Below are positions 8,584 through 46,470 of a stretch of DNA of 46,726 bases, piece after piece. Made by a program: the position numbers and the translations under genes. The stretch is from a virus. A model generated the notes under the pieces. The model did not search any database and had not been told where the DNA came from. It saw nothing but the letters and a program-made list of their open reading frames with translations. Positions within the stretch are counted from its first letter, which is position 1. Each line of letters starts with the position of its first letter. Where the stretch lies: the IMG/VR virus record IMGVR_UViG_3300024432_000021, positions 1-46,726 of that record. The stretch is one strand, 5' to 3'.

Positions 8584-8644
8584 GCCAAAGAAGAGGCCGT
8601 TCCCGTGTGACACGGCACCGACGGGGACGGCTTTTTTCTTTGGC
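8584..8644 (+). terminator. Strong intrinsic terminator at the end of the tail operon
   Basis: An 11-bp stem pairs 8596-8606 with 8621-8631 (one G-U pair), followed by six T at 8632-8637. A second, outer perfect pairing GCCAAAGAA (8584-8592) with TTCTTTGGC (8636-8644) makes the structure symmetrical, so it could stop transcription in either direction. A further hairpin without a T-run (8550-8555 with 8575-8580) lies just upstream. Confidence 0.85.
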
Positions 8645-8675: not shown

Positions 8676-8870
8676 ATGGAAATCGAGATGATCCAAGCGA
8701 TCGGAAATCTCGGAGCATTGCCCTTGCTCGGCTTTCTTTTGTGGCAAGCGATAAGGCTTCGCCGGAATGGTAACGGCAGGTTGGAAAAGGTCGAGCAAAA
8801 AGTCGACGGATTGGTTGTGAGTGTGGCCCGAATTGAGGGTCACTTAGGAGTCAAAAAGGAGGAAGGATGA
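8676..8870 (+). CDS. Small membrane protein with C-terminal coiled coil, lysis-associated
   Basis: 64 aa. One hydrophobic segment at residues ~8-24 (ALPLLGFLLWQAI), a basic stop-transfer RLRRNGNG, then a short amphipathic helix (RLEKVEQKVDGLVVSVARIEGHLG) with heptad-like spacing. This resembles XhlA-type and other holin-accessory proteins that sit next to holin genes. It overlaps the following holin-like gene by 4 nt (ATGA) and is the first gene after the tail terminator, so it probably opens the lysis cassette. Exact family not established. Confidence 0.6.
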   Translation: MEIEMIQAIGNLGALPLLGFLLWQAIRLRRNGNGRLEKVEQKVDGLVVSVARIEGHLGVKKEEG

Positions 8871-9610
8871 AAAAGAAAAGTCTTCTATGGTGGTTTATTG
8901 GTTTGTTCGTGAGAGATCCGAAGATAATCAGCGCAGGCATTGTGCGATTCGGAAAGGTCTTCATCATCGGCGGAGTTGGCTCGCTTGCGGCTCAATCGTT
9001 TTGGGGGGAAGGGATGACGGCCTTGGGTCTCACTTTGGTGATTTCCGGCCTGCTCGCTCTCGAAAAGCTATTGAAAGAGTGGTGGGGTGTCGGTCTCGCT
9101 CTCGCATTCGCGTTGATGTTGGCGCAGCCGGCCCAGGCGCAGACAAAGATCCTCCAGTTTGAGCCGACCGATTTCTCCATAGGCGGCGGTTCCATGCTCG
9201 GCGAGGAGGCGATGACGTTTACCTGGGACAGCGCATTTGCAGCCGTTCACTGGCACGGCGTTGCTCTCTTCGGTGACAACGCATCGTCCGGGATCGGTGT
9301 GGAGATCCATCCTGCATCCGTTGTTTCGAGCTTTGAGAATAACGTCAGTGTTCAATCAATCGATACTGTGGACTGGCGCTTTTGGAGCTTGAACCGAATC
9401 GAGATGTCGGCGCTTCAGCTACCGGGCGAGATTTGGGAAACGATGTATATCGGTTCCGATTTGCTCCTAGCCGAAGGTGGCGGCAACGACTATAGCGGTG
9501 ATTTTTCGGCGCGGTTCGTCTACGGCGTGAAGGATGGCCCGGTACAGCTCGAGTTCTACATGTTCGAGAAGTACCGACCGATCAGCGTCGCGTTTTTCTA
9601 TCGATTCTGA
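8867..9610 (+). CDS. Holin-like membrane domain fused to a beta-barrel-like C-terminal domain
   Basis: 247 aa. Residues ~20-66 hold two hydrophobic segments (IISAGIVRFGKVFIIGGVG and TALGLTLVISGLLAL) and a basic loop KLLKEWW, much like a small phage holin. A third hydrophobic stretch, VGLALAFALMLAQPAQAQ (~74-92), reads like a signal peptide with an AxA-type cleavage site. The remaining ~155 residues alternate in a beta pattern, rich in Trp/Phe, and end YRPISVAFFYRF, with a C-terminal Phe as in outer-membrane barrel proteins recognised by the BAM machinery. So this may be a holin whose C-terminus is exported, or two products (full length and internally initiated or cleaved). The start is fixed by the ATGA overlap and GGAAGG Shine-Dalgarno. 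Confidence 0.6.
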   Translation: MKKKSLLWWFIGLFVRDPKIISAGIVRFGKVFIIGGVGSLAAQSFWGEGMTALGLTLVISGLLALEKLLKEWWGVGLALAFALMLAQPAQAQTKILQFEPTDFSIGGGSMLGEEAMTFTWDSAFAAVHWHGVALFGDNASSGIGVEIHPASVVSSFENNVSVQSIDTVDWRFWSLNRIEMSALQLPGEIWETMYIGSDLLLAEGGGNDYSGDFSARFVYGVKDGPVQLEFYMFEKYRPISVAFFYRF

Positions 9611-9944: not shown

Positions 9945-10292
9945 ATGGCTCGAGCAATCCTCGATGGCGCGCGCTTCGGCTCAGGCGATCAAGCGATGGC
10001 CTATGCCCGAGAGCGCATTATCGATGCTCACGAGAGAGAGGGGCATGTCTGCCGGATCACAAGTAGCCGCGACGGAACTCATAGCAATGGGAGCCTGCAT
10101 TATATCAATCACGCTGAGGATTACGGGTTCCAAGGCATCCCGGCAGCGGCTCGCCAGGCCATCTATCGAGAGACCCGAACCGCACTAGAGGCTGATGATC
10201 CTTACTCTGATTTCGATGTTGTGTATGGAGATGAAAAACACCAAGGCCATATGCACGTCGAGTATCAACCTAAGCGAGCAATGAATAGGTAG
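9945..10292 (+). CDS. M15-type zinc peptidase, probable endolysin
   Basis: 115 aa from ATG 9945, which starts 5 nt after the previous stop; an in-frame ATG at 9900 lies inside the previous gene and is less likely. The M15 signature is visible: GSLHYINHAEDY gives His52 and Asp59 in the expected H-x6-D spacing, and GHMHVEY near the C-terminus gives the third ligand, His104. The stretch DFDVVYGD before the last motif is also typical. M15 enzymes cut peptide bonds of peptidoglycan stem peptides (L-Ala-D-Glu or D-Ala-D-Ala type). No signal peptide, so it would need the holin to reach the wall. The length is close to the minimum for the family; there is no separate cell-wall-binding domain. Confidence 0.8.
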   Translation: MARAILDGARFGSGDQAMAYARERIIDAHEREGHVCRITSSRDGTHSNGSLHYINHAEDYGFQGIPAAARQAIYRETRTALEADDPYSDFDVVYGDEKHQGHMHVEYQPKRAMNR

Positions 10293-10295
10293 TCC

Positions 10296-10460
10296 ATGTT
10301 TATACCAATCAGATTGATCGTCGAGCTATTCAAGAGGATCACGGGGCGCGCTGGGTTCTGCCGGCATCATCATCCTTGGCAGCCGTGCTGCAAGCTCGAC
10401 CGGCAGGGCATCAGGTGGAAGTGCTGCGAGTGCGAGAAGGAAAGGAACATGCTGCAATGA
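10296..10460 (+). CDS. Small Cys/His-rich protein, 54 aa
   Basis: ATG 10296 to TGA 10458-10460; the stop overlaps the start of the protease gene (ATGA). N-terminal residues are amphipathic (MFIPIRLIVELFKRI), followed by a zinc-binding-like section with FCRHHHPWQPCCK and WKCCECEKE, i.e. four to six Cys and three His in about 28 residues. A protein this small filling the gap exactly between two genes with a stop/start overlap is more likely real than chance. Family unknown; a zinc ribbon tethered to the membrane is one reading. Confidence 0.55.
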   Translation: MFIPIRLIVELFKRITGRAGFCRHHHPWQPCCKLDRQGIRWKCCECEKERNMLQ

Positions 10461-11431
10461 ATAAACGATTGCAAGAAGCGAAAGAAATTCTCGCCGGCCA
10501 TCCCGACGTGACAGGGATCGGCCATGGCTACCGATATAAGAACGGAAGGAAGCTCGCCGAGCGGTGCATCGTTATCGGTGTCAAAAAGAAACGCCCCCGG
10601 AGAGAGGTGTCTCGCGAACGACTCATTCCGCTCACGCTCGTCGGATATATAACCGATGTGCGCGAAATGGATATCCGTGTTCTACCGCCGAAACCATTAG
10701 CCTTTGTCCAACGGATGCGGCCGTGTCCCCCAGGTTTCAGTATCGGTCACGTTGCCATCTCTGCCGGTACCCTCGGTGCCTACGTCCGTGCCCCCGATGT
10801 AGACGGCTACGTGATCCTCTCCAACAATCACGTGCTCGCTGACTCGAACCAGGGGAAGATCAACGACAAGATTATCCAGCCGGGCAAGGCAGACGGTGGC
10901 TCCAGCCAGAATGATCTCTTCGCTCGGCTGAGGAGTTTCGCGGTTATCAAGTGGGACGGCGACAACAACGGCGGCTGCAACCTAGCCAAACGATTCTCGG
11001 CGTGGCGCTATAAGTCTCGTATGATCGAGCAGCCGTATCCGAATCTCATTGATGCTGCGACTGCCATCCCGTTCAACCAAGGTCACGTCAAACTCACTTA
11101 CCCCGACGGCTCGATGCTGACCGGCGTGAAGGATCTCGAGCTCGGCGACTTGGTCAAGAAGATGGGGCGCACGACCGAGTTTACTACCGGCATGGTCGAG
11201 GTTGTCGACCTGATGAGCAAGGTCCAGTACGGTCCAGGACAGATAGCGACCTATGATGATCAAGTGGCGATCCGCGCTACTGAGGGCAACTTCTCAGAGC
11301 CCGGTGACAGCGGGAGCGCGATTCTCACGATGGAAGACAAGCTCGGCGGTCTTCTCTTCGCCGGCGGTTCGGGGGTAACAATTGCGAATAGAATCACTCA
11401 TGTGATGAGTCTATTGGGAATAAGAATCTGA
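10457..11431 (+). CDS. Trypsin-like serine protease (chymotrypsin fold)
   Basis: 324 aa from ATG 10457, which has AAAGGA 10 nt upstream and overlaps the preceding stop; a longer TTG form at 10376 would run through the preceding small gene. Catalytic residues are all visible: His in LSNNHVLA, Asp in NLIDAATA, Ser in EPGDSGSAIL, with the oxyanion Gly before it. An N-terminal ~90-residue region (GIGHGYRYKNG, VIGVKKKRP) is typical of bacterial S1 proteases that carry a small alpha/beta prodomain. No signal peptide is evident, unlike the genes that follow. A cytoplasmic or virion-associated trypsin-like protease in a phage accessory block is uncommon; possible roles are cleavage of a virion adhesin or of host proteins on lysis. 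Confidence 0.8.
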   Translation: MNKRLQEAKEILAGHPDVTGIGHGYRYKNGRKLAERCIVIGVKKKRPRREVSRERLIPLTLVGYITDVREMDIRVLPPKPLAFVQRMRPCPPGFSIGHVAISAGTLGAYVRAPDVDGYVILSNNHVLADSNQGKINDKIIQPGKADGGSSQNDLFARLRSFAVIKWDGDNNGGCNLAKRFSAWRYKSRMIEQPYPNLIDAATAIPFNQGHVKLTYPDGSMLTGVKDLELGDLVKKMGRTTEFTTGMVEVVDLMSKVQYGPGQIATYDDQVAIRATEGNFSEPGDSGSAILTMEDKLGGLLFAGGSGVTIANRITHVMSLLGIRI

Positions 11432-12600
11432 TGATGGGATGGTGCGAAGTGAGGAAAATCGTTCTATTTATCTGGGTATCACTGGCTGTCATTTCCGTCG
11501 GTTGCAAGAAGCCACATCCGCCCCCTCCACCGCCTCCCGAATGCCCCCTATGGACCCCGGGACCGGAAGGGTGTGTGTGTCCGCCGGGGGCCGAGTATGT
11601 CGACCTCCTCGATGCCTGCGCTCCGCCACGGGTGGACAGGCCGCCCGAGCCCAGGCGGATCGTGGGCATCACGGCCTTCGCTCTTCCTCAGCACGATCCG
11701 ATCTACATCCACCACGTTTGCCGGCACATCGCAAGCGTCAACTACAACACGTTTCGCGTCGGATTCGAGCGCTGGCGCTGGGACAACGATCCGGCTTATC
11801 TGCTCCAGGGACCGAAATACGACACGGAAGAAAACCTGAGCCAGATACGCCGCTTTCTTGAGGTCACCGCGCGTCATGAAGGGATTTGGGTGGAGCTCGT
11901 CGCCGTCTTCACCATCAAGTCGATAGGACACACGGACACGCCGGAGATGCGCCGGGAGGCCGTCGAGCTTGCCATGCAGGTGGTCACCGAAGGCGACTAC
12001 AAGCACGTATTTTTCTCCTACGCCAACGAGTGGAGACGGAGCGGTGCGCCTCAAGCGCTCGATCCCTTCGCCGAATGGGAACCGTTCCCGCTGTCCGATC
12101 AATACCCGGCCATCACCAAAGAAGAGGTTCTGTGGGGGCTCCAGCGACTCAGCCAAACGGGGCGACTTGTCACGACGGACTGTCACGGGGAACACGTGGA
12201 TGGTAATCCGGGGAGGACGTGGGATCCTGCGTATGAGAAGTCATTCCTTCCCCACGTGGACATGGTGGCTTTCCATCCTCGCAGGAATCCCAATCCCACA
12301 GAGTTCGATCTGCGGCTAGGTGTGAGCCGCTACGTAGAGAGGGAGGATAAGCTGGCCGTGCTCTACAATGAGACTACGAGCTTCGCCACGGACCTCGAGC
12401 TCCAGAGATTCCCCAACCTGATCGGTAGCTTCCTCATCGCCAATAAAGGAAGGCCTCCCGAAGAGAAGCGCCGGCAGCAGATCCGGGAGTATTTGGCGAG
12501 AGTGAAAGCGGCCGGGGACGGAGCCCGGTGGTACTACCACTGTATCGGGTGCTTTATGTATCAAGAGGAGTTCGAGCCGATCTGGATTCCGGCTTGGTGA
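11431..12600 (+). CDS. Lipoprotein with TIM-barrel, clan GH-A-like glycoside hydrolase domain
   Basis: 389 aa; the ATG overlaps the protease stop (TGATG). A signal sequence with hydrophobic core ends ISVGC, so Cys25 is a likely lipidation site, followed by a Pro-rich tether and a small Cys-containing segment (PEGCVCPPG). Residues ~75-389 read as a (beta/alpha)8 barrel. Two features match clan GH-A: YANEW with Glu200 at the expected end of strand 4 (acid/base), and YNETTSF with Glu314 at the end of strand 7 (nucleophile). Substrate unknown. A surface-anchored sugar hydrolase could trim the host's own exopolysaccharide, either blocking later phages or aiding release. The -3 Ser in the lipobox is less usual. 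Confidence 0.65.
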   Translation: MMGWCEVRKIVLFIWVSLAVISVGCKKPHPPPPPPPECPLWTPGPEGCVCPPGAEYVDLLDACAPPRVDRPPEPRRIVGITAFALPQHDPIYIHHVCRHIASVNYNTFRVGFERWRWDNDPAYLLQGPKYDTEENLSQIRRFLEVTARHEGIWVELVAVFTIKSIGHTDTPEMRREAVELAMQVVTEGDYKHVFFSYANEWRRSGAPQALDPFAEWEPFPLSDQYPAITKEEVLWGLQRLSQTGRLVTTDCHGEHVDGNPGRTWDPAYEKSFLPHVDMVAFHPRRNPNPTEFDLRLGVSRYVEREDKLAVLYNETTSFATDLELQRFPNLIGSFLIANKGRPPEEKRRQQIREYLARVKAAGDGARWYYHCIGCFMYQEEFEPIWIPAW

Positions 12601-32673: not shown

Positions 32674-32717
32674 ATTCGAAAGGCCGGGTGAAACAGGCGC
32701 ATGCGTGGGTATTAGTT

Positions 32718-34055
32718 ATGAACATGTATCAACTGATGGAAACGCTTTTCCCAATCTACCGCACACTGATGGGTGTCGGTGTCCGGAAGACGATTGAGAA
32801 ATTGACGGACTACGGCTTGCCGCTCGATGTGCATGCAATACCTAGCGGCACAGGAGCATTCGATTGGACGGTGCCCGATGAGTGGGAGCTGGATGATGCA
32901 TATTTCGGCAAGTCAATCGACTTTCGTGAAAGAGAAGCTGTCATTTACTCTCAATCGTTCGACGCGAGAATCTCTGGAGCAGAGGCCAAAAAGCACCTCC
33001 ATTATTCTGAAGAGATGCCTGATGCAGTCCCCTATGTGACGAGCTATTACAAAAGGGATTGGGGTTTCTGCGTCACTAAAGCGGAATACGAAAAGATCCG
33101 AGACGACGACTATTACAGAGCAGTCATCAAAGCGCGGTTCTTTCCGGGCGTGCTCTCCTACGCCGATCTGATTCTCCCGGGCGAGAGCCGACACGAGATC
33201 CTTTTTTCCACGTACCTCTGCCATCCCTCGATGGCAAACGACAATCTGAGCGGCATCGTCGTCCAGGCCGAGCTTGCGAAGTGGGTCATGTCGTTGCCTG
33301 AACGCAAATACACTTACCGATTTATTTGGTGTCCTGAAACCATAGGGCCGATAGTTTATATCAGCCAGAATGAGATATTTGCCCATATGAGCCGGAATAT
33401 TCCGAAGCATCAGGTACCCCAGAAGGTGATCGCGGGTTGGGTGCTCACCTGTCTCGGGGGCCCCGGCAATTTCGCGCTGCAACATACGAAGTGGGGCGAT
33501 ACATATGCAGACAAAGTTGGAGCACACGTCCTCTCCCATCTGGGCAAGAACTATAGCTCCTACCCTTGGGAGGACCGCGCCAGTGACGAGCGGCAATGGG
33601 TGATGGCCGGTTTCCCTGTGGCATCCATTCAAAAGACCAAGTGCGGCACCTATCCCGAGTATCACACGAGCGCGGATAACCTCGATTTCGTGAAGCCGGA
33701 TCACTTGGAGGAATCGCTAGAGGTCTACAAGCGAATCGTCGAAGTTTGCGAGAACGATGGCTATTACCTAAGCAATGTCTGCTGCGAGCCGTTCATGACG
33801 AAGCACGGGCTTTACCCAACGCTCAGCAAGCGAGGCTCTTCCGGTTCGGCTCGGGACTACATGAACGTCTGGTCCTATTGTGATGGAGAGCATAGCCTAT
33901 TTCAGATTGCGCAACGATTGAAGAAGCCTTTCTGGGAGGTGTTGGAGATTGCGAAGGAGCTTGAGAAGCATCACTTGTTACGAGGAGGAGGGTTAGCCCG
34001 ATGGACAAAAGAGTCGTCGATGAGACCGGGAACCGACACGGACGACTTGTCGTAA
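32718..34055 (+). CDS. DUF4910 aminopeptidase-like protein (M28-type fold), surface-sugar locus type
   Basis: 445 aa from ATG 32718, chosen because the family begins MYxLxxxLFPxxRxL; a GTG at 32688 is open upstream. IPSGTGAFDWTVPDEWELDDAY (~42-62) is the family's N-terminal hallmark. Metal-site candidates: His169 in YLCHPSMANDNLSG with Asp175, Glu207 in CPETIG, and His316 in EYHTSADN. A C-terminal winged-helix section (IAQRLKKPFWEVLEIAKELEKHHLL) follows. The last ~20 residues overlap the HNH gene and are unlike the family, so the native end was probably replaced. DUF4910 proteins are usually found in bacterial polysaccharide/LPS loci; the reaction is uncertain (amide hydrolysis inferred from fold). 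Confidence 0.8.
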   Translation: MNMYQLMETLFPIYRTLMGVGVRKTIEKLTDYGLPLDVHAIPSGTGAFDWTVPDEWELDDAYFGKSIDFREREAVIYSQSFDARISGAEAKKHLHYSEEMPDAVPYVTSYYKRDWGFCVTKAEYEKIRDDDYYRAVIKARFFPGVLSYADLILPGESRHEILFSTYLCHPSMANDNLSGIVVQAELAKWVMSLPERKYTYRFIWCPETIGPIVYISQNEIFAHMSRNIPKHQVPQKVIAGWVLTCLGGPGNFALQHTKWGDTYADKVGAHVLSHLGKNYSSYPWEDRASDERQWVMAGFPVASIQKTKCGTYPEYHTSADNLDFVKPDHLEESLEVYKRIVEVCENDGYYLSNVCCEPFMTKHGLYPTLSKRGSSGSARDYMNVWSYCDGEHSLFQIAQRLKKPFWEVLEIAKELEKHHLLRGGGLARWTKESSMRPGTDTDDLS

Positions 34056-34519
34056 TTGCTAGAGCGTGGACTAAGGGGCGCTGGACAACTTGGGAATGCC
34101 TTTGCGATTGTGGTGAAACCATCGAAGTCAGGGGGCATCGGTTGAGAAATGGACACACTAAATCATGCGGGTGTTTACGTCGCGAGCAAAGGACCGCTTT
34201 CGGCGAGTCGCGAAGTACTCACGGGCATTCGTTCGTAGGGGGAAAGGAGACCCCAACCTATAGCAGTTGGCACTCGATGAAACAGAGATGTCTCAATCCG
34301 AAAGCTACTAAGTGGAAACATTATGGCGCCCGCGGCGTCAGAGTTTGTGAGAGATGGCGGATCAGCTTCGAGAACTTCCTCGCAGACATGGGTGAGCGGC
34401 CGGCTGGGAAGACGCTCGATCGGATAGACCCAGACGGGAACTATGAACCAGGCAATTGCAGGTGGGCGACTATGGTCCAACAAAGGCACAACAGGAGGAC
34501 TGGGGATGAAGAGGGATAA
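34001..34519 (+). CDS. HNH-type homing endonuclease with N-terminal zinc ribbon
   Basis: 172 aa; strong GGAGGAGG Shine-Dalgarno about 15 nt upstream of ATG 34001. Residues ~30-60 hold CLCDCGETIEV and SCGCLRRE, a ribbon common at the N-terminus of phage HNH/AP2 endonucleases. The catalytic part has YSSWHSMKQRCLNP, HYGARGVRVCERW, and the hallmark LDRIDPDGNYEPGNCRWAT with QQRHNRR. It overlaps the gene before by 55 nt and the gene after by 14 nt, so it appears to have inserted between two sugar-locus genes, adapting their ends. Such enzymes cut uninserted alleles and spread by repair. Confidence 0.85.
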   Translation: MDKRVVDETGNRHGRLVVIARAWTKGRWTTWECLCDCGETIEVRGHRLRNGHTKSCGCLRREQRTAFGESRSTHGHSFVGGKETPTYSSWHSMKQRCLNPKATKWKHYGARGVRVCERWRISFENFLADMGERPAGKTLDRIDPDGNYEPGNCRWATMVQQRHNRRTGDEEG

Positions 34520-35072
34520 AGTCATTATTTTTGGCGTCTTGCGGCAAGAGGACTATCCACTCGAGGCTCCGATCGGGGACGAGAGCTACGATGTCTGGTG
34601 CATGAACGCGAGCTGGCCGGCAGAACACTGGGACTGCTGGTTCCAACTTCATGGTATCGAGCACATGATGGAAGCCCACGGCATCAAGTACATCCGGTGG
34701 TTGCAGACCGTTGCCGCCTACCATAAGAGCAAGACGGTCTATGTTTTCGAGCATGAGCTCCATCATTTCCCCGGCGCGGAGGCTTTTCCGCTTCCCAAGC
34801 TCATTGAAGAGTTCGGCGATTACTTCACTGGCAGCTTTGCCTACCTAACAGCGTTCGCGATCCTTCGTCGATATAAGAAGATTTGGATAGATACGCGAGG
34901 GATGGAAGGCGAAGAGTGGGCGATCCCGTGCATCGAGTATTACATCGGGATTGCGGAGGAACGCGGGATCGTTGTCCATGTGGGAAGCAATAGCGACCTG
35001 CTACATAGAAGGCGCGGCGGGCTCTACGGTATCGGCCGAGACAGGGGAGGCAACTTCGGTGAGCTTGACTAG
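34506..35072 (+). CDS. MptE/sialyltransferase-like Rossmann protein (paralog of 44726-45655)
   Basis: 188 aa from ATG 34506, which has AGGAGG 8 nt upstream; an ATG at 34443 lies inside the HNH gene. Shares a frame of motifs with the 309-aa protein at 44726: an N-terminal strand ending in Gly (VIIFG), ESYDVWCMNAS vs DSFEIWGCNHL, DCWFQLH vs DVVFELH, and a C-terminal unit IEYYIGIAEERGIVVHV vs TEYMIGLARGRGVKVVI. The fold seems to be a single Rossmann-like domain as in DUF115/MptE and sialyltransferase-related proteins; the partner's C-terminal coiled coil is missing. Transferase or nucleotide-sugar binding is likely but unproven. Confidence 0.65.
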   Translation: MKRDKVIIFGVLRQEDYPLEAPIGDESYDVWCMNASWPAEHWDCWFQLHGIEHMMEAHGIKYIRWLQTVAAYHKSKTVYVFEHELHHFPGAEAFPLPKLIEEFGDYFTGSFAYLTAFAILRRYKKIWIDTRGMEGEEWAIPCIEYYIGIAEERGIVVHVGSNSDLLHRRRGGLYGIGRDRGGNFGELD

Positions 35073-35820
35073 ACAGCAAATCAAAAGCGATCTGAATCGA
35101 GCCGGAATCGTTCCAGGCTCCAGAGTGATGGTGCACTCAAGCTACAAATCTTTGGGCGGCGTCGAAGGCGGTCCGGTCGAGGTGGTTCATGCGTTTCTTG
35201 ATGCGGTTTACCCTGAAGGTGTAGTCGTCTTCCCCACTTTCGATTTCAAAAGTTGGACGCAAAGAGGTAGCTGGGATTATTGGGAAACACCTTCACAGAT
35301 GGGCGTCATCACGGAAAAGGCGCGGACAGGATGTCCAGAGCACTTCGTCCGGACGCTTCATCCAATCTATTCGTGTATCACAAGCGAAATGGCGCCCGGA
35401 TCTAGGGACGCTTGCGTGGATGCATTCGGTGTAATGACGTTCTTCGAGCACATCATTCAGAAGAACTACACGATTGTCGTTCTCGGGGTACCCGACGTAA
35501 ACAACAGCTTCACCATCGTTCACCAAGCGGAAGTCACCGCCGACCCGCCGAATTATTGGCGGGAGCGAAAAGAATTTGTCGGCACCTATTGCGATCCTTG
35601 GGGAGTCAGTAGCCGGCAGTCTTATTTCATGCACGTTCGCAAGGAAGGCGTAACGACGAATATCCGGCCTTTCGTGCAGCTTCTGCTCGAGAAAGGTGTG
35701 ATTCAGGAGCATCGAGTGGGGCCAGCGAGAACCTTGGTTGCCAGCTCGCAGGAGTTTGCCGAACACGCGATGTGGGCGGCGATCAGTCGGCCCGAGCTTT
35801 TGAGGGAGGCAGAAGGATGA
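35059..35820 (+). CDS. AAC(3)/Antibiotic_NAT-family N-acetyltransferase (probable sugar acetylation)
   Basis: 253 aa from GTG 35059, chosen for the GGGGAGG 8 nt upstream; the open frame extends into the previous gene. Family features: VMVHSSYKSLGGVEGGP near residue 22, VVFPTFDF near 55, and RTLHPIYSCITS with the His typical of the catalytic site near 100. Length matches the family. In this setting, between a nucleotide-sugar-type protein and an SDR, it more probably acetylates an amino sugar of a polysaccharide than an aminoglycoside; acetyl-CoA would be the donor. Confidence 0.8.
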   Translation: MSLTRQQIKSDLNRAGIVPGSRVMVHSSYKSLGGVEGGPVEVVHAFLDAVYPEGVVVFPTFDFKSWTQRGSWDYWETPSQMGVITEKARTGCPEHFVRTLHPIYSCITSEMAPGSRDACVDAFGVMTFFEHIIQKNYTIVVLGVPDVNNSFTIVHQAEVTADPPNYWRERKEFVGTYCDPWGVSSRQSYFMHVRKEGVTTNIRPFVQLLLEKGVIQEHRVGPARTLVASSQEFAEHAMWAAISRPELLREAEG

Positions 35821-36557
35821 AGATTACTTTAGTCACCGGCGCCAGCGGCGCGATCGGCGGCGCCGTGTATTCAGCCCTTGAAAAGAAGGGGATGATGTTG
35901 GGAACGACGGGCAGCTTCGAGCCGCTTCACCGGCCGGAATATGTCGTTGTAGGCCAGTGCTGGAAAAACCCGCTCATTGTTGCCGACAAGCTCTGGAAAG
36001 AGCCGATCAAAATTCCAGCCTATGACCTTAGCGATGAGCGGCAGGTCCAAAAGCTCATAGAACGGGTCAGGCCTACGACTATCGTCCATTGCGCCGGCAT
36101 CGCGCGAGACGGCATTTCGTGGAAGCTCACCAACGAGCAATGGGATGAGGTGATGACGCTCAACCTCAAGGCGGCGTGGTGGCTGGCGAAGTATTCGTTG
36201 CCCCACATGCGTGAGGCTGGATTCGGGCGCATCGTTTTCATCTCGTCGGTTCTCGGGAGCATCGGCGTTGTCGGCACGGCCAACTATGCGGCGAGCAAAG
36301 GTGGCCTTGAGGCTCTGGCCCGCACGCTTGCGGCGGAAACCGCCCAAAACGGTATCACCGTTAACTGCGTGGCGCCTGGCTATCTCGACGCGGGCATTGC
36401 CGGCCGGTTGCCGGATGACATCAAGAAGAAAATGGCCGAGCGGGTACCGATGGGGCGACTCGGGACGCCGGAAGACGTTGTGCGTGCGGTGCTCTTCCTT
36501 CTTGATTCGCCCTATGTGACGGGGCAGGTGATCCATGTGAATGGGGGGATGGCATGA
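35817..36557 (+). CDS. Short-chain dehydrogenase/reductase (FabG-like)
   Basis: 246 aa; ATG 35817 with GGGAGG upstream and a 4-nt overlap with the acetyltransferase stop. Rossmann cofactor motif TGASGAIG at 7-14, HCAG at 91-94 in place of NNAG, catalytic Ser144 (ISSVLGSIG), Tyr157 and Lys161 (YAASK) in correct S-x12-Y-x3-K spacing, and the usual GRLGTPEDV and YVTGQVIHVNGG near the end. An NAD(P)-dependent ketone/alcohol step on a sugar or an acyl chain; the context favours sugar modification. A non-standard insertion follows the first strand (residues ~28-65). Confidence 0.9.
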   Translation: MKITLVTGASGAIGGAVYSALEKKGMMLGTTGSFEPLHRPEYVVVGQCWKNPLIVADKLWKEPIKIPAYDLSDERQVQKLIERVRPTTIVHCAGIARDGISWKLTNEQWDEVMTLNLKAAWWLAKYSLPHMREAGFGRIVFISSVLGSIGVVGTANYAASKGGLEALARTLAAETAQNGITVNCVAPGYLDAGIAGRLPDDIKKKMAERVPMGRLGTPEDVVRAVLFLLDSPYVTGQVIHVNGGMA

Positions 36558-38854: not shown

Positions 38855-41026
38855 ATGGGTCTACTCCAACAGATAAAGGAGCGCTTCAAAAAGACGGAGG
38901 TCATTGCCCGGCTCATTCCCACCTATCAGGCCAGCCGTAAGCTGCCGCTTCCTCATGATTATCGAAACCTCGCCGATGAGGGCTATCGCAAAAACGTCAT
39001 AATCCATGCATGCATCCGCGTGCTGATGCGCACTGGCGTGGCAGTGGATATCCGTGTCAGGCGCAGAAACGCCAAGTCGGAGCTCGAGCCCGTCGGCCCG
39101 AAAGATCCGTTGCTGAATCTCCTTCAACATCCGAACCCAGAGCAGTCGACACGTGAGTGGCTCGAGCACGCGACCCTCCACTACAATGTCTCCGGCAATT
39201 CCTACACTCACAAGGTCCGGAGCTCACGCGGCCAAGTGGTTGAGCTGTGGCAGCTACGGCCCGATAGGATCCGCGTCAAGCCCCGGCTCGATGGATTTGT
39301 TGAGGGGTACAAATTCCCCGTGGCGGTCGATCCTCAGAAGGAGCGGCTGGTGCCTTTCGAGGATGTGATCCATATGAGGATGCCTGATCCCCTGGATGAC
39401 TATTATGGCCTATCCCCCATCGCTGTGCTTGCCCGGATCGGCGATCTGGACAATCACGCCATCGATTATCTTCGGGCATTCTTTGAGAACAACGGAATTC
39501 CGGGTGGTCTGATCAAGGTAAAGGTTAAGGTTGCGAAAGACAGGGCTGATGAGATTAAGCAGAGCTGGAAAGATCAATATGGCGGAAAGGATGGCTGGCA
39601 CGGCATCGGTCTGATAGATTCCGAGGCGGACTATCAGGAGATCGGGACGCGACCAGAGAAGCTGAACCTCGCCGCAATCTTCGGCGAAACAGAGTCACGC
39701 ATATGCGCGGCGTATGGTGTTCCCCCAATTGTGGTGGCTGTATGGATCGGGCTGATGCGCTCGACTTACGCGAACTACCGTGAGGCGATCAAGGATCTCT
39801 GGGTCGACCAAGTGACGCCATACTATGGCCGTATTGGAGACAAGCTAACCGCAGAGCTCGCGCCGGAGTTTGGCGAGGGCTATGTTATCGACTTCGATTT
39901 CTCGCGCGTCGAGGCGCTTCAAGAAAGTCGATCCGAATTGAGAAAGTTCGGTCTCGAGGCCTGGAATGGTGGGCTTCTAACGAGGAATCAGGCGCTGGAG
40001 CTCGCGGGCCTGGATCTCATCAAGGGACCCGAGGGTGACGAACGAAAGGTTATCGGCGGGGCCGGCATGGCCTTCTCCAGGTCCGTCCTGACCGCGGAGC
40101 CGCAAGTCTTCGAGCTGGAGTCCGGCGAGATCTCTGAGATAAAGATTCCTGTTGACAAAAAACCGCCCGATCCGGAGTGGAAAGCCATTCACCGCGCAGC
40201 AGACGAGAAGCTCAAGGCCATGCATCGGGCCTTTTTCGAGGCGGTTAAGGAAACCAAGAAAGCCATCGATGTCGAGGCTATCCACGAAGCCTTGAAGAGC
40301 GGGGATGCGGCCAAGGCCCACAATGCAATCCCTTGGGATTCCCTCGCTGTCGCCAAGCTCACAGATGTCTATCCTGAGCACCTACGAGCTATCTACGAGA
40401 AGGCCGCATCTCTGACGCGGGTACCGGAGAAAAAGGCATCGGCGAAAGGGCCCTCGGAGCTCCATGTCGTTGCGGTAAAATTGCCGCCCGAGGCCGCCGA
40501 CGGATGGGCTCAACAACGGGTAGCCGAGCTCATCCGGGAGGTAACGGAAACAACGAAGGAGGCGGTGAGGCAGATAATTGACAGGAGATTCACGGAGGGG
40601 CTCCAGACGCTGAGGGCGGCCAAGCAGATCCGGGACATGGTCGGGCTGACGGACCGCCAAGAGCTATCCGTTGAGAAATACCGCCAAGGACTGATCAAGG
40701 ATGGACTGAGCTTGGATGCGGCTGATAGGCGTGCGCTGAGGGAGATAGCCAGGAAGCTACGTAAGCGCGGCTTGCTAATCGCCCGCACCGAAGGCAGACG
40801 CGCCGCATCAGCCGGCCAGCATGAGATCTTCCAGGAGGCGGCGCGCCAGGGCATTCTTGACGGCGGCAAGGCAAAGCGAGGTTGGGTTGCAGGGCCGAAT
40901 GCGTGTCCAGATTGCATGGCGCTCGATGGAAAAAAGGTCGGGCTGAATGAGGAGTTCGCGCCAGGGATTATGTTTCCGCCTCTCCATCCAGGAGGGGAAT
41001 GTGGGATTACGATCGAGGCTGAATGA
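38855..41026 (+). CDS. Portal protein fused to a MuF-like minor head domain
   Basis: 723 aa. Residues ~1-420 are an HK97-type portal: HPNPEQSTREWLEH, VSGNSYTHKVRS, LWQLRPDRI, HMRMPDPLDDYYGLSPI, ENNGIPGGLI, AAYGVPPIVV, LTRNQALELAGL. After an acidic linker, residues ~510-723 match phage Mu gpF-type minor head proteins, with LIARTEGRRAASAGQHEIF, KRGWVAGPNACPDCMALDGK and PPLHPGGECGITI near the end. Portal and MuF are usually separate genes; fusions are known but not common. The fused part would sit inside the capsid near the vertex, where MuF domains can be ejected or carry enzymes. Confidence 0.9.
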   Translation: MGLLQQIKERFKKTEVIARLIPTYQASRKLPLPHDYRNLADEGYRKNVIIHACIRVLMRTGVAVDIRVRRRNAKSELEPVGPKDPLLNLLQHPNPEQSTREWLEHATLHYNVSGNSYTHKVRSSRGQVVELWQLRPDRIRVKPRLDGFVEGYKFPVAVDPQKERLVPFEDVIHMRMPDPLDDYYGLSPIAVLARIGDLDNHAIDYLRAFFENNGIPGGLIKVKVKVAKDRADEIKQSWKDQYGGKDGWHGIGLIDSEADYQEIGTRPEKLNLAAIFGETESRICAAYGVPPIVVAVWIGLMRSTYANYREAIKDLWVDQVTPYYGRIGDKLTAELAPEFGEGYVIDFDFSRVEALQESRSELRKFGLEAWNGGLLTRNQALELAGLDLIKGPEGDERKVIGGAGMAFSRSVLTAEPQVFELESGEISEIKIPVDKKPPDPEWKAIHRAADEKLKAMHRAFFEAVKETKKAIDVEAIHEALKSGDAAKAHNAIPWDSLAVAKLTDVYPEHLRAIYEKAASLTRVPEKKASAKGPSELHVVAVKLPPEAADGWAQQRVAELIREVTETTKEAVRQIIDRRFTEGLQTLRAAKQIRDMVGLTDRQELSVEKYRQGLIKDGLSLDAADRRALREIARKLRKRGLLIARTEGRRAASAGQHEIFQEAARQGILDGGKAKRGWVAGPNACPDCMALDGKKVGLNEEFAPGIMFPPLHPGGECGITIEAE

Positions 41027-41259
41027 TGAGCAAACGTTCATTTGGTGAGCAAGGCCGTTTCGAGCCTTACGATTGGCATCCCGCCGAGAGTAAAATCCCG
41101 AAAGAGCTTTGTGGGCGTATCCAGGATTTTATCGCCAATTACCGCACGGGACAGATCGCAATAAACTTTACGCAGGGGAAGATTGCTAATTGGAACGTAC
41201 ATATCACTGAGCGGGATGTTACGCCTGACGAACGGCTCCAGAAATCGGACAGCCCATGA
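41023..41259 (+). CDS. Small head-region protein, 78 aa
   Basis: ATGA overlap with the portal stop; a second ATG follows directly. Contains RIQDFIANYRTGQIAINFTQGKIANWNVHI, a beta-hairpin pattern like that of small DUF2292-type proteins. Not exported. It ends before a ~190-nt leader region upstream of the prohead protease. Confidence 0.5.
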   Translation: MMSKRSFGEQGRFEPYDWHPAESKIPKELCGRIQDFIANYRTGQIAINFTQGKIANWNVHITERDVTPDERLQKSDSP

Positions 41260-41264
41260 CTATT

Positions 41265-41294
41265 TTGACGCATAAAGGCTATATTTGTTAGACT
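41265..41294 (+). promoter_or_regulatory. Candidate promoter upstream of the prohead-protease leader
   Basis: TTGACG (41265-41270, 5 of 6) and TAGACT (41289-41294, 4 of 6), 18-nt spacer. Start point ~41301 would give a 146-nt leader carrying the two-codon ORF and terminator described below. Confidence 0.45.
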
Positions 41295-41335
41295 CTGATT
41301 AAATGGAAGTAGTTTATAAGACAGGGAGAGTAACT

Positions 41336-41344
41336 ATGAAGTAG
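41336..41344 (+). promoter_or_regulatory. Two-codon leader ORF (ATG AAG TAG) with Shine-Dalgarno
   Basis: GGGAG at 41324-41328 is 7 nt before ATG 41336, followed by a Lys codon and TAG. Immediately downstream are a CCTC/GAGG hairpin (~41346-41362), CTTGT/ACAAG (41368-41382) and the intrinsic terminator at 41380-41428; the last two overlap, so they can compete. A ribosome on this minimal ORF would sit next to the first hairpin, a layout suited to attenuation. Confidence 0.35.
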
Positions 41345-41379
41345 ACCTCGGTTAAGCTGAGGGGTACTTGTAAATCACA

Positions 41380-41428
41380 AGCCCCGTCGTTCCGGGAATG
41401 AGTTAGTCCCGGGCGGCGGGGCTTTTTT
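41380..41428 (+). terminator. Intrinsic terminator/attenuator before the prohead protease
   Basis: AGCCCCG (41380-41386) pairs with CGGGGCT (41417-41423); inside, CCGGGA (41392-41397) pairs with TCCCGG (41407-41412); six T at 41423-41428. The T-run ends only 18 nt before ATG 41447, too close for a promoter of its own, so transcription of the protease and capsid genes must read through it. Confidence 0.8.
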
Positions 41429-41446
41429 GTTGAGCGGTGAGGGCTG

Positions 41447-42616
41447 ATGAGTAAAAATAAAGACTCAGGAATAGCCACAGAGCACTTCCGCGTCTCTTTC
41501 CAGATCGATCCCGCAAAGTCCAATCTCGAGGAGCGAGAGTTCGTCGGGATGGCGTCGGTGTTCGGCTCCCTCGTAGAGGGAGCATTCCAGCCGACTATCA
41601 TCGAGGAAGGCGCGTTTTCCAAAACTCTGCTGGAGAAAAAGGGCAAGGTGCCCATTCTCTGGCAGCACGAAACCCGGGAACCCATCGGCATACCTCTTGA
41701 GCTGACTGAGAATGCCGCCGGCCTCTACATCAAGGGCAAGATCTCCAAGACGGACATTGGGGATAAGGCGTTGACCTTGCTACGCGATGGAGTGCTTCGC
41801 GGCCTATCCATCGGATTCGACCCCATCAAATGGAACATGGAGAAGGAGCGAGAGACAGATCGGGAGTGGGATGCGATACGTCACATCACAGAACTACGAT
41901 TGTGGGAAGTAAGCCTTGTAACCTTCGGGGCCGACCCTTTGGCGCAAGTGACCGAGGTTCGCTCGCAAGGGCCAGATGAAGAGCATCCTCGCGTACCTCC
42001 AGGCAAGAAAGACGGAAAAGGCTTTGAGATTCAGAGCCTGATCTGTCCAAAAGATAAGTGGGATTCTCTCGCAGATGCCAAGAAGTGGCTGAAGGACCAT
42101 GGATACAAGACCAGCGGCATGGACGAGGCCGATGTTTCCTGGCGCTTCAGGCAAAGAAACCCCGACGAGTTCCTACGGCTTCGCACCATCTGCATAAACC
42201 CCGGCAGCAAAACAAAACTGGGTGACTGCAAGGTGAAGGCCGTAGGGGGGCCGCTCAAACAGGCACTGATCGATCATATCGAGGTCGTGTTCGAAGATGT
42301 GAAGGATGTCGAGGGCATGGCCGAACAGATTGAGGCCATCGTTGAAAAAATCACCGATCTTCCCGAGCCGCTTCTCTTGGATGAAGCACTCGAGGGAAAG
42401 ACGATTAGCAAGAAGAACACGCAGCGCATTCAGGATGGAATCAAGGCGCTGCAGGAGCTTCTCGAGCTAGCCGAGCCGCCAGAAGGCGACGACGCGTCCG
42501 GGAAACACCCGAAAAAAGACGAGCGTCGCACACGGGCACTCACTGCGGAAGTGGAGCTCATGGAGGTGGAGCTCGCCGAAGCCGAGGCGAACTTCGCGCA
42601 AACAACCACTACGTAA
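41447..42616 (+). CDS. HK97-type prohead protease fused to scaffold-like C-terminus
   Basis: 389 aa. Peptidase S78 features at residues ~15-175: FVGMASVFGSLVEGAFQPTI, VPILWQHETREPIG (catalytic His), GLSIGFDPI with the Ser, and LWEVSLVTFGADPLAQV. A middle section (~195-270) with KWDSLADAKKWLKDHGYKTSG and FRQRNPDEF forms a domain often found behind phage proteases. The C-terminal ~110 residues are acidic and helical (EVELMEVELAEAEANFAQ), like a scaffold/delta domain. The only start with good context is ATG 41447, right after the attenuator. Processes the capsid and scaffold during maturation. Confidence 0.9.
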   Translation: MSKNKDSGIATEHFRVSFQIDPAKSNLEEREFVGMASVFGSLVEGAFQPTIIEEGAFSKTLLEKKGKVPILWQHETREPIGIPLELTENAAGLYIKGKISKTDIGDKALTLLRDGVLRGLSIGFDPIKWNMEKERETDREWDAIRHITELRLWEVSLVTFGADPLAQVTEVRSQGPDEEHPRVPPGKKDGKGFEIQSLICPKDKWDSLADAKKWLKDHGYKTSGMDEADVSWRFRQRNPDEFLRLRTICINPGSKTKLGDCKVKAVGGPLKQALIDHIEVVFEDVKDVEGMAEQIEAIVEKITDLPEPLLLDEALEGKTISKKNTQRIQDGIKALQELLELAEPPEGDDASGKHPKKDERRTRALTAEVELMEVELAEAEANFAQTTTT

Positions 42617-42629
42617 GGAGGTTTTGCCA

Positions 42630-43958
42630 ATGTACGAAACCGAGATTGCGCAAGTGCGGCAGAAGGCCGCAGAAGCGCTGAATGCTTGGAAGGAGTGCAT
42701 CGCCAAGTACAAGAAGACGCCGGAGGACCAGTGGACCGCGCAAGATCAGGAGAAGAAGGAGAAGGCGCGGAAAGACTACGAGCAGTTCAACAACGATCTG
42801 GTCAAGCTTCAAGGGAAGCAAAAGGAAGAGCAGGCACTCGCACACGCCGAGGCACTGTACAAGGATCCCGTTACCCGTGTGCCGGTTCACGGTCCAGAGT
42901 CTACCGGCCCAAGCGAGAAACAGGAGCTGGAGAAGAAAAAGAAGGAGGAACATAAGGCTGCTTTCCACGCTTTTCTCAAGGCTCCGAAAGGACTCGCTGA
43001 ACGTGCTGCCATAGAGGAGCTGAAGTCCTACAAACCCGAGGAAATTCATACCCTGATGACCACGACTGGTAGCTTGGGCGGTTTTCTCGTGCCCGAGGAC
43101 TTCAAGCTCGAGGTCATCAAGGATCTGGGCGGTTTCGCGGTCATCAGGCCGCTTGCGCGTGTCATGCCAACCAGCCGGGATACAGCGGTCGTCCCAACCA
43201 TCGTCGCCGCCAGCTCGACTCGTGCCGCTCAGGGATACACCAGCGGATTCACCGGCGCGTGGAAGCAGCAGCGGACATCGAGCGGAGGTGCCACCGCTCT
43301 GACCACGCAGGACCAGCCGAGATTCGGCCAAGAGCGTATCCCGATCCACAACTGGGAGCCCGATGCGATCGAGCTTTCACGTGAAACGCTCGAGGATTCC
43401 GCCGCGGATCTCGACGCCATCCTCGCAGAGATCATCGCCGAGGTCCGAGCACTGGATGAGGACTACGAGTTCTTGCTTGGGACTGGCGTCGGTCGTCCCG
43501 AAGGACTGCTCAGCACGAGTGCCAACATTGCCAGTGTAATAAGCGGAGCCACCAGTACGTTGACCTTTGCCGGGTTGATGAACCTCAAGATGACCCTCCG
43601 GGCTCAGTACAGGCAGAACGCCACTTTTCTGATGAACTCCTTGACCTTTGGTGCCGCGATGGTTCTGGAGACCTCTGCGGGCGTGGACTTGATCTTCAAG
43701 CAAATGTTGCTTGAGCCGGGCAAGTTCATGGGCCATCCCATCGTGTTCAGCGAGTTCTTGGCGGATGTTGGCGCAGGTGCAAAACCGATTCTCTTCGGAG
43801 ATTTCCGTCACTATGTCATCGCGGATCGGAAGGAGCTCCGTGTGCAGAGGCTTGAGGAGCGTTTTGCTCCTAACGTGGGTTTGTTACCGTCTGCCCGGCT
43901 CGGTGGACAGACAGTGCGTCCGAATGCTTTCCGCGTTCAACGCTGTGCCACGGCATAG
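42630..43958 (+). CDS. Major capsid protein, HK97 fold
   Basis: 442 aa from ATG 42630, with TAAGGAGG 10 nt upstream; a TTG two codons earlier is not used. Residues ~1-130 are a charged coiled coil (delta/scaffold part, KKEEHKAAFHAFL) to be removed by the protease. The fold proper starts with TTTGSLGGFLVPEDF, then the N-arm/E-loop part (VMPTSRDTAVVPTI), spine helix (LDAILAEIIAEVRALDEDYEFLLGTG) and the P/A domain with ATFLMNSLTFGAAMVLE and HPIVFSEFLADVGAGAKPILFGDFRHY. Most abundant virion protein. Confidence 0.95.
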   Translation: MYETEIAQVRQKAAEALNAWKECIAKYKKTPEDQWTAQDQEKKEKARKDYEQFNNDLVKLQGKQKEEQALAHAEALYKDPVTRVPVHGPESTGPSEKQELEKKKKEEHKAAFHAFLKAPKGLAERAAIEELKSYKPEEIHTLMTTTGSLGGFLVPEDFKLEVIKDLGGFAVIRPLARVMPTSRDTAVVPTIVAASSTRAAQGYTSGFTGAWKQQRTSSGGATALTTQDQPRFGQERIPIHNWEPDAIELSRETLEDSAADLDAILAEIIAEVRALDEDYEFLLGTGVGRPEGLLSTSANIASVISGATSTLTFAGLMNLKMTLRAQYRQNATFLMNSLTFGAAMVLETSAGVDLIFKQMLLEPGKFMGHPIVFSEFLADVGAGAKPILFGDFRHYVIADRKELRVQRLEERFAPNVGLLPSARLGGQTVRPNAFRVQRCATA

Positions 43959-44050
43959 AGCCGATGGGCCGAAGAAAAAACAAGCAGGTGTCACGGCGGG
44001 CCACGAAACCCGCCGAGGCGCCGGCGGCGCAGCCAAAGGAGGCGATCACC

Positions 44051-44218
44051 ATGAAAGCTGAAGAGCAGCCGCAAGTCGAGGTTGCTGAGCAGCCTGAACC
44101 AAAGCGAGCAGAAGAGCAGGAGAAATGGAAGTGTCCTGGCTGCGAAATCGTTTTCGACAATCAACCGGAGTGGAATTCGCATGTGAAACGTCACGCTCAC
44201 GCGAATCAACTGCTCTGA
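44051..44218 (+). CDS. Small protein with a classical C2H2 zinc finger
   Basis: 55 aa from ATG 44051, which has AAAGGAGG 8 nt upstream; an ATG at 43964 in the same frame lacks a Shine-Dalgarno and would add a Lys/Ala-rich tail of 29 residues. After an acidic Gln/Glu-rich part comes WKCPGCEIVF...WNSHVKRHAH: C-x2-C-x12-H-x3-H, exactly a C2H2 finger. Such fingers are rare in phage structural operons. Could bind DNA or a capsid protein; stands between the capsid and a decoration-like gene. Confidence 0.7.
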   Translation: MKAEEQPQVEVAEQPEPKRAEEQEKWKCPGCEIVFDNQPEWNSHVKRHAHANQLL

Positions 44219-44233
44219 TAGGAGAAGAGACAC

Positions 44234-44722
44234 ATGAGTGAAATGGGACAATGGATCGCGCAGCATACTGCGTTGACCACGATTGTGGCAGCTATCGATT
44301 CGGGTGATACCACCGGCGGGGTCGGTGCGACCGCAGATGGCAACCCGATCGATCTCCGGCCAACGGGCCGGCGCTACCAGTCGTTGAAGATGCTGATCTC
44401 GTACTACGCCAGCATCGCCACAGGTTTCGTGGTGAAAATCGCGGCCAATTTGCAAGACCGAGCCACCACCAGCGGCACGGGGAGCACTTGGGCCGATTTC
44501 GGAACGGCACCTACCACCCACAGCTTGGCGACTACGGGAATCACCTACGGTGAGTTTCCTTGGAATCAGGATCTTCGAGCCGCCAAACGCTACCTGCGGG
44601 TACAGGCATGCCCGAGCTTTGTGACCGCCACTGGTGGGGGCGCCACTGATACAGGGAGCGTCGTGCAGCTCTGGGCCGTGGCCACGCTGCTCGACCCGAA
44701 TCGCCGGCCGGCCAGCGGATAG
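44234..44722 (+). CDS. Head decoration-like or minor structural protein, 162 aa
   Basis: TAGGAGA Shine-Dalgarno before ATG 44234. Beta-rich, Thr/Gly/Ala-rich (AAIDSGDTTGGVGATADGNP, TTGITYGEFPW, YLRVQACPSFV). No cysteine-rich or membrane parts. Such Thr-rich beta proteins behind the capsid gene are often decoration or minor structural proteins; composition resembles the secreted protein at 12625-13539 in style. Exact role unknown. Confidence 0.6.
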   Translation: MSEMGQWIAQHTALTTIVAAIDSGDTTGGVGATADGNPIDLRPTGRRYQSLKMLISYYASIATGFVVKIAANLQDRATTSGTGSTWADFGTAPTTHSLATTGITYGEFPWNQDLRAAKRYLRVQACPSFVTATGGGATDTGSVVQLWAVATLLDPNRRPASG

Positions 44723-44725
44723 TTT

Positions 44726-45655
44726 ATGGCTGCGTCCAAAAAGAAAGTTGCCATCGTAGGGTTCAGCGAAAACTCGCGGCATCTTGCGCCCTACGATGAC
44801 GACTCTTTTGAGATCTGGGGCTGTAACCACCTCTATCGGCTCATTCCCCGCGTCGATGTGGTGTTCGAGCTGCATCACCGAGGGGAGCTTGAGGCGAAGT
44901 ACGGGGACAATTGGGCCGAGTATCGGGATTGGCTCATGACGACCAAGGAGCAGATCTACATGCTCGAGAAGCAGCCGGATTTCCCGACCAGTGTCCGTTA
45001 TCCGATAGAGGACATCGTGGAGTTCTTGAGCAGCTTCCAGCAGAAGCGCCCAGATGAGGAGCTCGAGTCACCATACTTTGCCAGCACGATCGGTTACATG
45101 TTCATGCTTGCTTTGATGCAGGACAAGAAGGAAATCGGGCTATACGGCGTGGATATGGTCATCGATTCTGAATACGGGGTTCAGCGGCCTAACACCGAAT
45201 ACATGATCGGTCTGGCACGGGGCCGAGGCGTGAAGGTTGTGATTCCCAAGGAATCCGCCCTATTGAAAGGCCGGAAGCTCTATGCATACGAGCACGAGAC
45301 GTGGAAGTACGCCGATACCATCACCGCGATGCGCAAACGGATCGAGAAGCTGAGCGAGCAGTTCAATGAAGCTGAAGTGAAAGCCAACAAGGCCCTGGAC
45401 ACGATGCACGTGTGGGAGGGGGCTCGTGGCTGGGCAAAGGAATTCAAGCAAGCACTCGCCGACAATGGTCACGGGAAACCTGAAGTAATCAAGATGATTG
45501 ACGAACAGGTTGAGATTCTCAATCAGCGATTCAAGGAAATGGAGGAGGCGAACAAAAAAGCCGTTGATGAGCAGCACAACTACGAGGGAGCCAGGTGGGA
45601 GGCCATGTATTGGATCGATAAGTTCGGCTACAACGACCGGGGAGAGCCAATGTGA
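44726..45655 (+). CDS. MptE/sialyltransferase-like Rossmann protein with C-terminal coiled coil
   Basis: 309 aa. Opens KKVAIVGFSENSRHLAPYDD, a Rossmann strand with a Gly turn, then FEIWGCNHLY, VDVVFELHHRGEL, SPYFASTIGYMFMLALM, IGLYGVDMV and TEYMIGLARGRGVKVVIPKESALL, resembling DUF115/MptE- and sialyltransferase-related phage proteins. Residues ~205-300 add a long coiled coil (RIEKLSEQFNEAEVKANKALD, LNQRFKEMEEANKKAVDEQH). Homologous to the shorter protein at 34506-35072. The stop overlaps the start of the CMP-sugar synthetase gene, a strong hint that it uses that product. Acceptor unknown; a virion protein is possible given the location. Confidence 0.65.
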   Translation: MAASKKKVAIVGFSENSRHLAPYDDDSFEIWGCNHLYRLIPRVDVVFELHHRGELEAKYGDNWAEYRDWLMTTKEQIYMLEKQPDFPTSVRYPIEDIVEFLSSFQQKRPDEELESPYFASTIGYMFMLALMQDKKEIGLYGVDMVIDSEYGVQRPNTEYMIGLARGRGVKVVIPKESALLKGRKLYAYEHETWKYADTITAMRKRIEKLSEQFNEAEVKANKALDTMHVWEGARGWAKEFKQALADNGHGKPEVIKMIDEQVEILNQRFKEMEEANKKAVDEQHNYEGARWEAMYWIDKFGYNDRGEPM

Positions 45656-46467
45656 GCGTTCTTGCCATTATCCCAGCTCGAGGTGGTTCCAAACGGATCC
45701 CCAAGAAAAACCTCCGGCTGCTCTTGGGCCGGCCATTGATTGCGTGGTCCATCGAGGCCGCCAAGATGTCTCAACAGGTTGATCGTGTCGTGCTCTCCAC
45801 TGAAGATGAGGAGATCGCCCGCGTTGGGAAAATGTATGGCGCAAAAGTCATCATGAGGCCCGAGGAGCTGTCCGCGGATGATGCGCCTACGGATCCTGTG
45901 ATGATCCACGCCCTAAACGAAATCGGCAAAGACGGATACGCGCCCAAGCTCTTGGTTCTTCTTCAGCCGACGTCACCGATCCGACCCGCGAATCTGATTG
46001 ACGACTGCATTCAGAGGCTCAGATTCTCCGGGGCGAATAGCCTCTTCACCGGTTTTTACGGGCCACATTTCGCTTGGACGAGAGCGCCGGGGTGGGTCGA
46101 TGATCCCCTGAAGCGAAAGGGCATGATGCAGCCTTTCAACTTCGGCTCTCGGGATGCTCGAAAACGCCGACAGGATATGGATGAAAGCGAAATTCCATTT
46201 TTAGAAAACGGCTCGGTCTTTGTGACCGATACCAAGGCATTCATCAAGACCAGCTCGCGGGTCTGCCCTCCCACAGAAGCTTTCGAGATGCCGATGAGCT
46301 ATTCCATTGATATCGATGAGATCGAGCACTTCTGGGAAGCGGAACGGATTTTGTGTGCACCTCGAAGTGACGTGGCTTTCCCGGCGCTGGCGGGCGACAT
46401 TAGAAAGAGGGATCCAAGAAACAAAGCAGATCCCAAAAACATAAAACCTCTCCCGAAAGCGGTGTGA
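45652..46467 (+). CDS. CMP-sugar synthetase (CMP-N-acylneuraminate/Kdo-type cytidylyltransferase)
   Basis: 271 aa from GTG 45652, with GGGGAG upstream and a 4-nt overlap with the previous stop (GTGA). Signature IIPARGGSKRIPKKN at 6-20 binds CTP; LVLLQPTSPIRPA (~100-112) and the C-terminal YSIDIDEIEHFWEAE (metal-binding Asp) complete the family. The family activates nonulosonic acids such as sialic, legionaminic or pseudaminic acid (and related acids) to CMP-sugars. No gene for making such an acid is visible in the window, so the sugar is probably taken from the host. Placement within the head operon is unusual. Confidence 0.9.
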   Translation: MSVLAIIPARGGSKRIPKKNLRLLLGRPLIAWSIEAAKMSQQVDRVVLSTEDEEIARVGKMYGAKVIMRPEELSADDAPTDPVMIHALNEIGKDGYAPKLLVLLQPTSPIRPANLIDDCIQRLRFSGANSLFTGFYGPHFAWTRAPGWVDDPLKRKGMMQPFNFGSRDARKRRQDMDESEIPFLENGSVFVTDTKAFIKTSSRVCPPTEAFEMPMSYSIDIDEIEHFWEAERILCAPRSDVAFPALAGDIRKRDPRNKADPKNIKPLPKAV

Positions 46468-46470
46468 GCG

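Follow-up and report, generated by a model that had tools for sequence, protein, structure and literature searches.

Introduction

Unimolecular spanins (u-spanins) of the T1 gp11 type carry the elements for both membranes in one protein; they have beta-rich periplasmic domains and link the two membranes (PMC6139136). Two-component spanins, such as lambda Rz/Rz1, pair a coiled-coil i-spanin with an o-spanin lipoprotein. A survey of phage spanins left about 13% of the genomes analysed without an identified spanin, and its authors proposed that an outer-membrane protein (OMP) could serve as the outer-membrane partner (o-spanin) (PMC6139136). Two other kinds of protein are close to the one described here, namely two-TM phage holins (class II layout, e.g. 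r1t-like PF16945), which have two short helices and a tiny loop, and small barrels such as OmpX and the phage Ail/Lom proteins, which have an ordinary N-terminal signal.

An earlier note on the present DNA, made from the letters alone, had described one gene in which a part resembling a small holin was followed by what looked like an internal Sec signal and an outer-membrane, barrel-like domain, a layout for which the note knew of no established family. The gene was analysed here together with its surroundings.

The phage and the putative lysis cassette

The window, i.e. the whole stretch of DNA analysed, is a 46,726-base IMG/VR virus record. It contains HK97-type capsid, portal, prohead protease, RecT and integrase genes, and the source is therefore probably a temperate tailed phage. 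The record begins within an apparent tape-measure gene (112–1455). A second record, L002 (IMGVR_UViG_3300009488_000222), matches the window at 99.8% identity over 7.3 kb (positions 39434–46725 only) and continues past its right edge (46726) for a further 3.65 kb, so that part of the genome is absent from our record, which looks like a permuted, incomplete genome. The features of the locus are as follows.

8586–8641 (+): terminator-like hairpin with T-run (−30 kcal/mol, z −5.9), separating the putative lysis cassette from the tail genes
8676–8870 (+): 64-aa ORF, one TM and then a charged coil; BhlA/UviB-like by layout only
8867–9610 (+): 247-aa fusion ORF with holin-like domain, internal signal and OMP-like domain; open frame with continuous codon bias
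8939–8998 (+): predicted TM helix 1, residues ~25–44; hydropathy peak, and helix in the low-confidence AlphaFold (AF2) model
9011–9064 (+): predicted TM helix 2, residues ~49–66; top hydropathy peak (1.98), helix pLDDT about 70
9065–9139 (+): predicted internal Sec-type signal, residues 67–91, with KLLKEWW, a hydrophobic core and AQA before Q92; rule-based scan
9140–9607 (+): OMP-like C-terminal domain of 156 aa, residues 92–247; by composition against E. coli controls
9581–9607 (+): beta-signal-like C-terminus ISVAFFYRF, score 5/5 (non-OMP controls 3 or less)
9945–10292 (+): putative M15/Hedgehog-type peptidase, an endolysin candidate, with motifs GSLHYINHAED (H-x6-D) and HMHVEY

A 94-aa ORF sits between the 247-aa ORF and the peptidase-motif ORF. 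The H-x6-D and HxH pattern of the 9945–10292 product is one that we take to mark an M15/Hedgehog-type metallopeptidase; this product had no profile match and matched no solved structure in the PDB, and the 64-aa ORF likewise had no profile match. By its order (hairpin, TM/coil ORF, 247-aa ORF, 94-aa ORF and peptidase-motif ORF), we infer that the region is a putative lysis cassette. Near it, nothing was recognisable as a canonical spanin pair; lipoprotein-like ORFs were present elsewhere in the window, at 11431–12600 and 15827–15423 (−).

ORFs with Sec- or lipoprotein-like signals were unusually many for a phage (12625–13539, 13548–14384, 14395–14769, 19010–19483, 2472–2008 (−) and 15827–15423 (−)), and the one at 13548 contained a LamG-like sequence of the kind also seen in the tail protein at 5032. 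Genes of surface-sugar type were found at 45652–46467, 32688–36557 and 44726–45655; the head module holds a PseF-like cytidylyltransferase, and a second cluster contains an AAC(3)-like acetyltransferase together with an SDR. L004 likewise contains homologues of the genes in the head module. The ORF at 10376–11431 was protease-like and matched phrog_20754 (E 1.2e-51), its nearest named relative being from an Aeropyrum coil-shaped archaeal virus (29% identity).

A single reading frame of 247 codons

The frame at 8867–9610 (+) is uninterrupted over 247 codons, and its coordinates, segment layout and terminal Phe agreed with the earlier description. AGGAGG at 8857–8862 precedes the start codon, which overlaps the stop codon of the upstream 64-aa membrane ORF (ATGA). 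The earlier note had asked whether a frameshift near 9090–9130 had been missed. Codon log-odds were above zero in each 20-codon block, with even bias along the whole frame, and both other forward frames averaged negative; the sequence thus gave no sign of a frameshift near 9090–9130. Within the signal segment, in-frame start codons were confined to the hydrophobic core (residues 83–85), so that assuming a single indel does not turn the downstream part into a gene of its own with an ordinary signal peptide. In this record the fusion, known from one sequence, appears genuine. A shorter product could speculatively arise from an in-frame ATG at codon 50, which has a G-rich stretch ahead of it. Codon bias and content spoke against an overlapping +1-frame ORF (8887–9162) and the minus-strand ORFs, which were rejected.

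The holin-like domain and the predicted internal signal

Hydropathy peaks were found at residues ~25–41, 49–65 and 73–89. The first two correspond to two hydrophobic helices within residues 1–73, which by hydropathy and charges are predicted to have the pattern of a small N-in/C-in holin. Seven K/R residues occur up to the start of helix 1 and none in the short loop FWGEGM, whilst charges are balanced downstream of helix 2; by the positive-inside rule, this distribution predicts an N-in/C-in topology. Together with the putative lysis context, these features bear out the small-holin appearance that had been reported for the first ~70 residues. The two short helices, the tiny loop, the N-in/C-in charges and the putative lysis-gene neighbours are shared with two-TM holins of the r1t-like type; the 247-aa ORF differs from these in lacking a profile match and in its 174-residue extension, which bears the export signal. 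Since no holin profile in Pfam or PHROGs matched the N-terminal domain, ‘holin-like’ here means that layout and context resemble those of holins and does not assign the protein to a holin family.

Residues 74–91 (GVGLALAFALMLAQPAQA) resemble a Sec signal with an AQA site. The segment, which comes after the earlier TM helices, reads GVGLALAFALMLA-QPAQA and then Q; its hydrophobic core is short, and positions −4, −3 and −1 are occupied by Pro, Ala and Ala. ORFs of at least 150 aa from the window, related viral records and stretches of E. coli (316 ORFs, in which L001 is the same locus as the 247-aa ORF) were scanned with a rule combining an internal hydrophobic segment, AxA, a long TM-free tail and an OMP-like C-terminus. 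Only one, the 247-aa ORF, had this layout; as the rule was devised after the protein had been seen, this count measures rarity and is not a formal test. The AQA site and the unique layout are in line with the Sec signal and AxA cleavage site suggested previously at ~74–92.

The OMP-like C-terminal domain

Residues 92–247 were compared with 12 outer-membrane, 15 secreted and 15 cytosolic proteins, all from E. coli. Aromatic content was 16.0%, compared with an OMP mean of 13.9% and 10.9% in the highest non-OMP control, and in both aromatic content and C-terminal score the domain surpassed all 30 non-OMP controls. It has no cysteine. Aliphatic content (23%) was above that of the OMP controls and nearer that of the secreted controls. 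The C-terminus ISVAFFYRF is similar to those of OmpX (WIAGVGYRF) and OmpW (FMFSAGYRF), the terminal YRF being common to all three. Of the window's 375 stop-to-stop frames with 60 codons or more, two have the C-terminal motif. The protein carries both a Sec-like signal (AQA) and an aromatic-ended, beta-signal-like C-terminus. In mature size (156 aa, compared with ~149 aa for OmpX) and aromatic content the domain is comparable to the small outer-membrane barrels, OmpX and the phage Ail/Lom proteins. These differ from the 247-aa ORF in having the ordinary N-terminal signal and no holin-like domain, and no Ail/Lom profile matched it.

The claim that this part of the protein is beta-patterned was borne out only weakly. 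The lag-2 hydrophobic autocorrelation was 0.145 (means of 0.125, 0.061 and −0.041 for OMP, secreted and cytosolic controls, respectively), and the observed alternation was reached by 143/2000 and 281/2000 shuffles, and by 408/2000 with a second measure, placing it above about 80–93% of shuffles (p about 0.07–0.2). Alternation was not clearly above shuffles; it was rejected as stand-alone proof of a barrel. Single-sequence AF2, run without homologues, gave strands and no confident fold (pLDDT 31–41); Foldseek matches were discarded because the underlying model was too poor. The earlier interpretation stood in part: sequence, calibrated composition and the putative lysis context favour a holin-like N-terminus, an internal Sec-type signal and an OMP-like C-terminal sequence within one frame. 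A barrel is not proven, and cleavage, arrival at the outer membrane and its disruption would be further, proposed steps.

Search for relatives

Neither the whole protein nor either half had a credible relative in IMG/VR (pattern scans), GTDB contigs, GenBank phages, plasmids or the PDB, or a credible profile match in Pfam, PHROGs, NCBIfam or PADLOC. Searches anchored on the neighbouring genes (tail proteins, capsid, peptidase and small TM ORF) yielded three near relatives and one distant relative of the capsid protein only; the 247-aa gene was absent from the relatives found. In the regions viewed of a Desulfofustis phage and a Manatee Spring phage, which have similar terminases, there was no annotated counterpart, and IMG/VR pattern scans found no second contig over the fusion point. 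The statement that no established family has this layout thus holds for the libraries and collections searched, the scans for distant relatives being limited in reach. The parts of the protein are of known kinds; in these collections they were nowhere seen joined into a single chain with an export signal inside it, a layout so far known from one example.

Discussion

The best explanation, which we hold tentatively, is a two-part envelope protein consisting of a holin-like anchor and an exported OMP-like domain that possibly acts at the outer membrane during lysis. The first ~73 residues would form a holin-like, N-in/C-in domain of two helices in the inner membrane, and the third hydrophobic segment would serve as an internal Sec signal sending the C-terminal 156 residues to the periplasm. 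Signal peptidase I would cleave after A91; the freed domain, given a host with an outer membrane, would insert there and form a small barrel-like protein. In that position it may compromise the outer membrane or act in lysis as the outer-membrane partner. The continuous frame, the hydropathy and positive-inside charges, the rare internal signal with AxA, and the likeness of the C-terminal domain to E. coli OMPs in aromatics, absence of Cys and C-terminal signature all favour this explanation, as does the site after a terminator and between the TM/coil and peptidase-motif ORFs. It is weakened by the lack of a homologue, of a holin profile match and of a confident AF2 fold, by alternation not clearly above shuffles and by an aliphatic content above that of the OMP controls.

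Unlikely, but worth weighing, is that a Lom-like conversion (moron) OMP has been appended in frame to a holin gene, the halves working separately: the holin domain would function in lysis and the outer-membrane domain in surface change of the lysogen, e.g. superinfection exclusion. The integrase, the several other Sec-signal ORFs and the surface-sugar type genes are as in conversion-rich temperate phages, and lambda lom is likewise placed after the tail genes. Against this, Ail/Lom profiles gave no match, and co-translation with the holin domain ties expression to the late phase, which would be odd for a lysogen gene.

It is improbable that the third segment stays uncleaved, giving a three-helix inner-membrane anchor and a beta-rich periplasmic domain in a spanin-like bridge with polarity opposite to that of T1 gp11. 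The linking of both membranes by u-spanins with such domains (PMC6139136) offers a parallel, and AF2 continues helix 2 into the third segment (residues 52–86, low confidence), but the near-ideal AQA site with Pro at −4, the OMP-type C-terminus and the absence of a lipobox speak against it. Equally doubtful is that the C-terminal domain, instead of forming an outer-membrane barrel, is exported to the periplasm as a soluble, beta-rich domain or adopts an unknown fold; the shuffles and the aliphatic content fit this, whereas the range of the 15 secreted controls covers neither its aromatic content nor its C-terminal signature. An assembly or sequencing artefact fusing two genes is very unlikely: no second contig was found over the locus and L002 backs only the right end of the window, but codon bias is unbroken through the junction, and one indel would not account for two intact genes, for which sequence would have to be missing.

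Like u-spanins, the two-part envelope protein would combine, in one chain, elements directed at each membrane with an exported, beta-rich part. It differs from them in its opposite polarity and in having an OMP-type C-terminus in place of an N-terminal lipobox and C-terminal TMD; residues 92–247 contain no Cys, and by hydropathy the C-terminus is not a TM helix. A role in outer-membrane disruption may be common to it and the two-component spanins, but no coiled-coil i-spanin or o-spanin lipoprotein was recognised beside the gene. Judged by its sequence, the protein is neither a u-spanin nor a recognised Ail/Lom protein. That this single gene provides both an inner-membrane hole-former and a barrel, cut free by signal peptidase, that completes envelope rupture, replacing a lipoprotein spanin with an OMP-type factor, is a bolder and rather unlikely form of the proposal. 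The gene is a concrete candidate for an OMP acting as the outer-membrane partner in lysis, the role suggested for such proteins as o-spanins; if this is true, attack on the inner and outer membranes would be coupled within one translation product.
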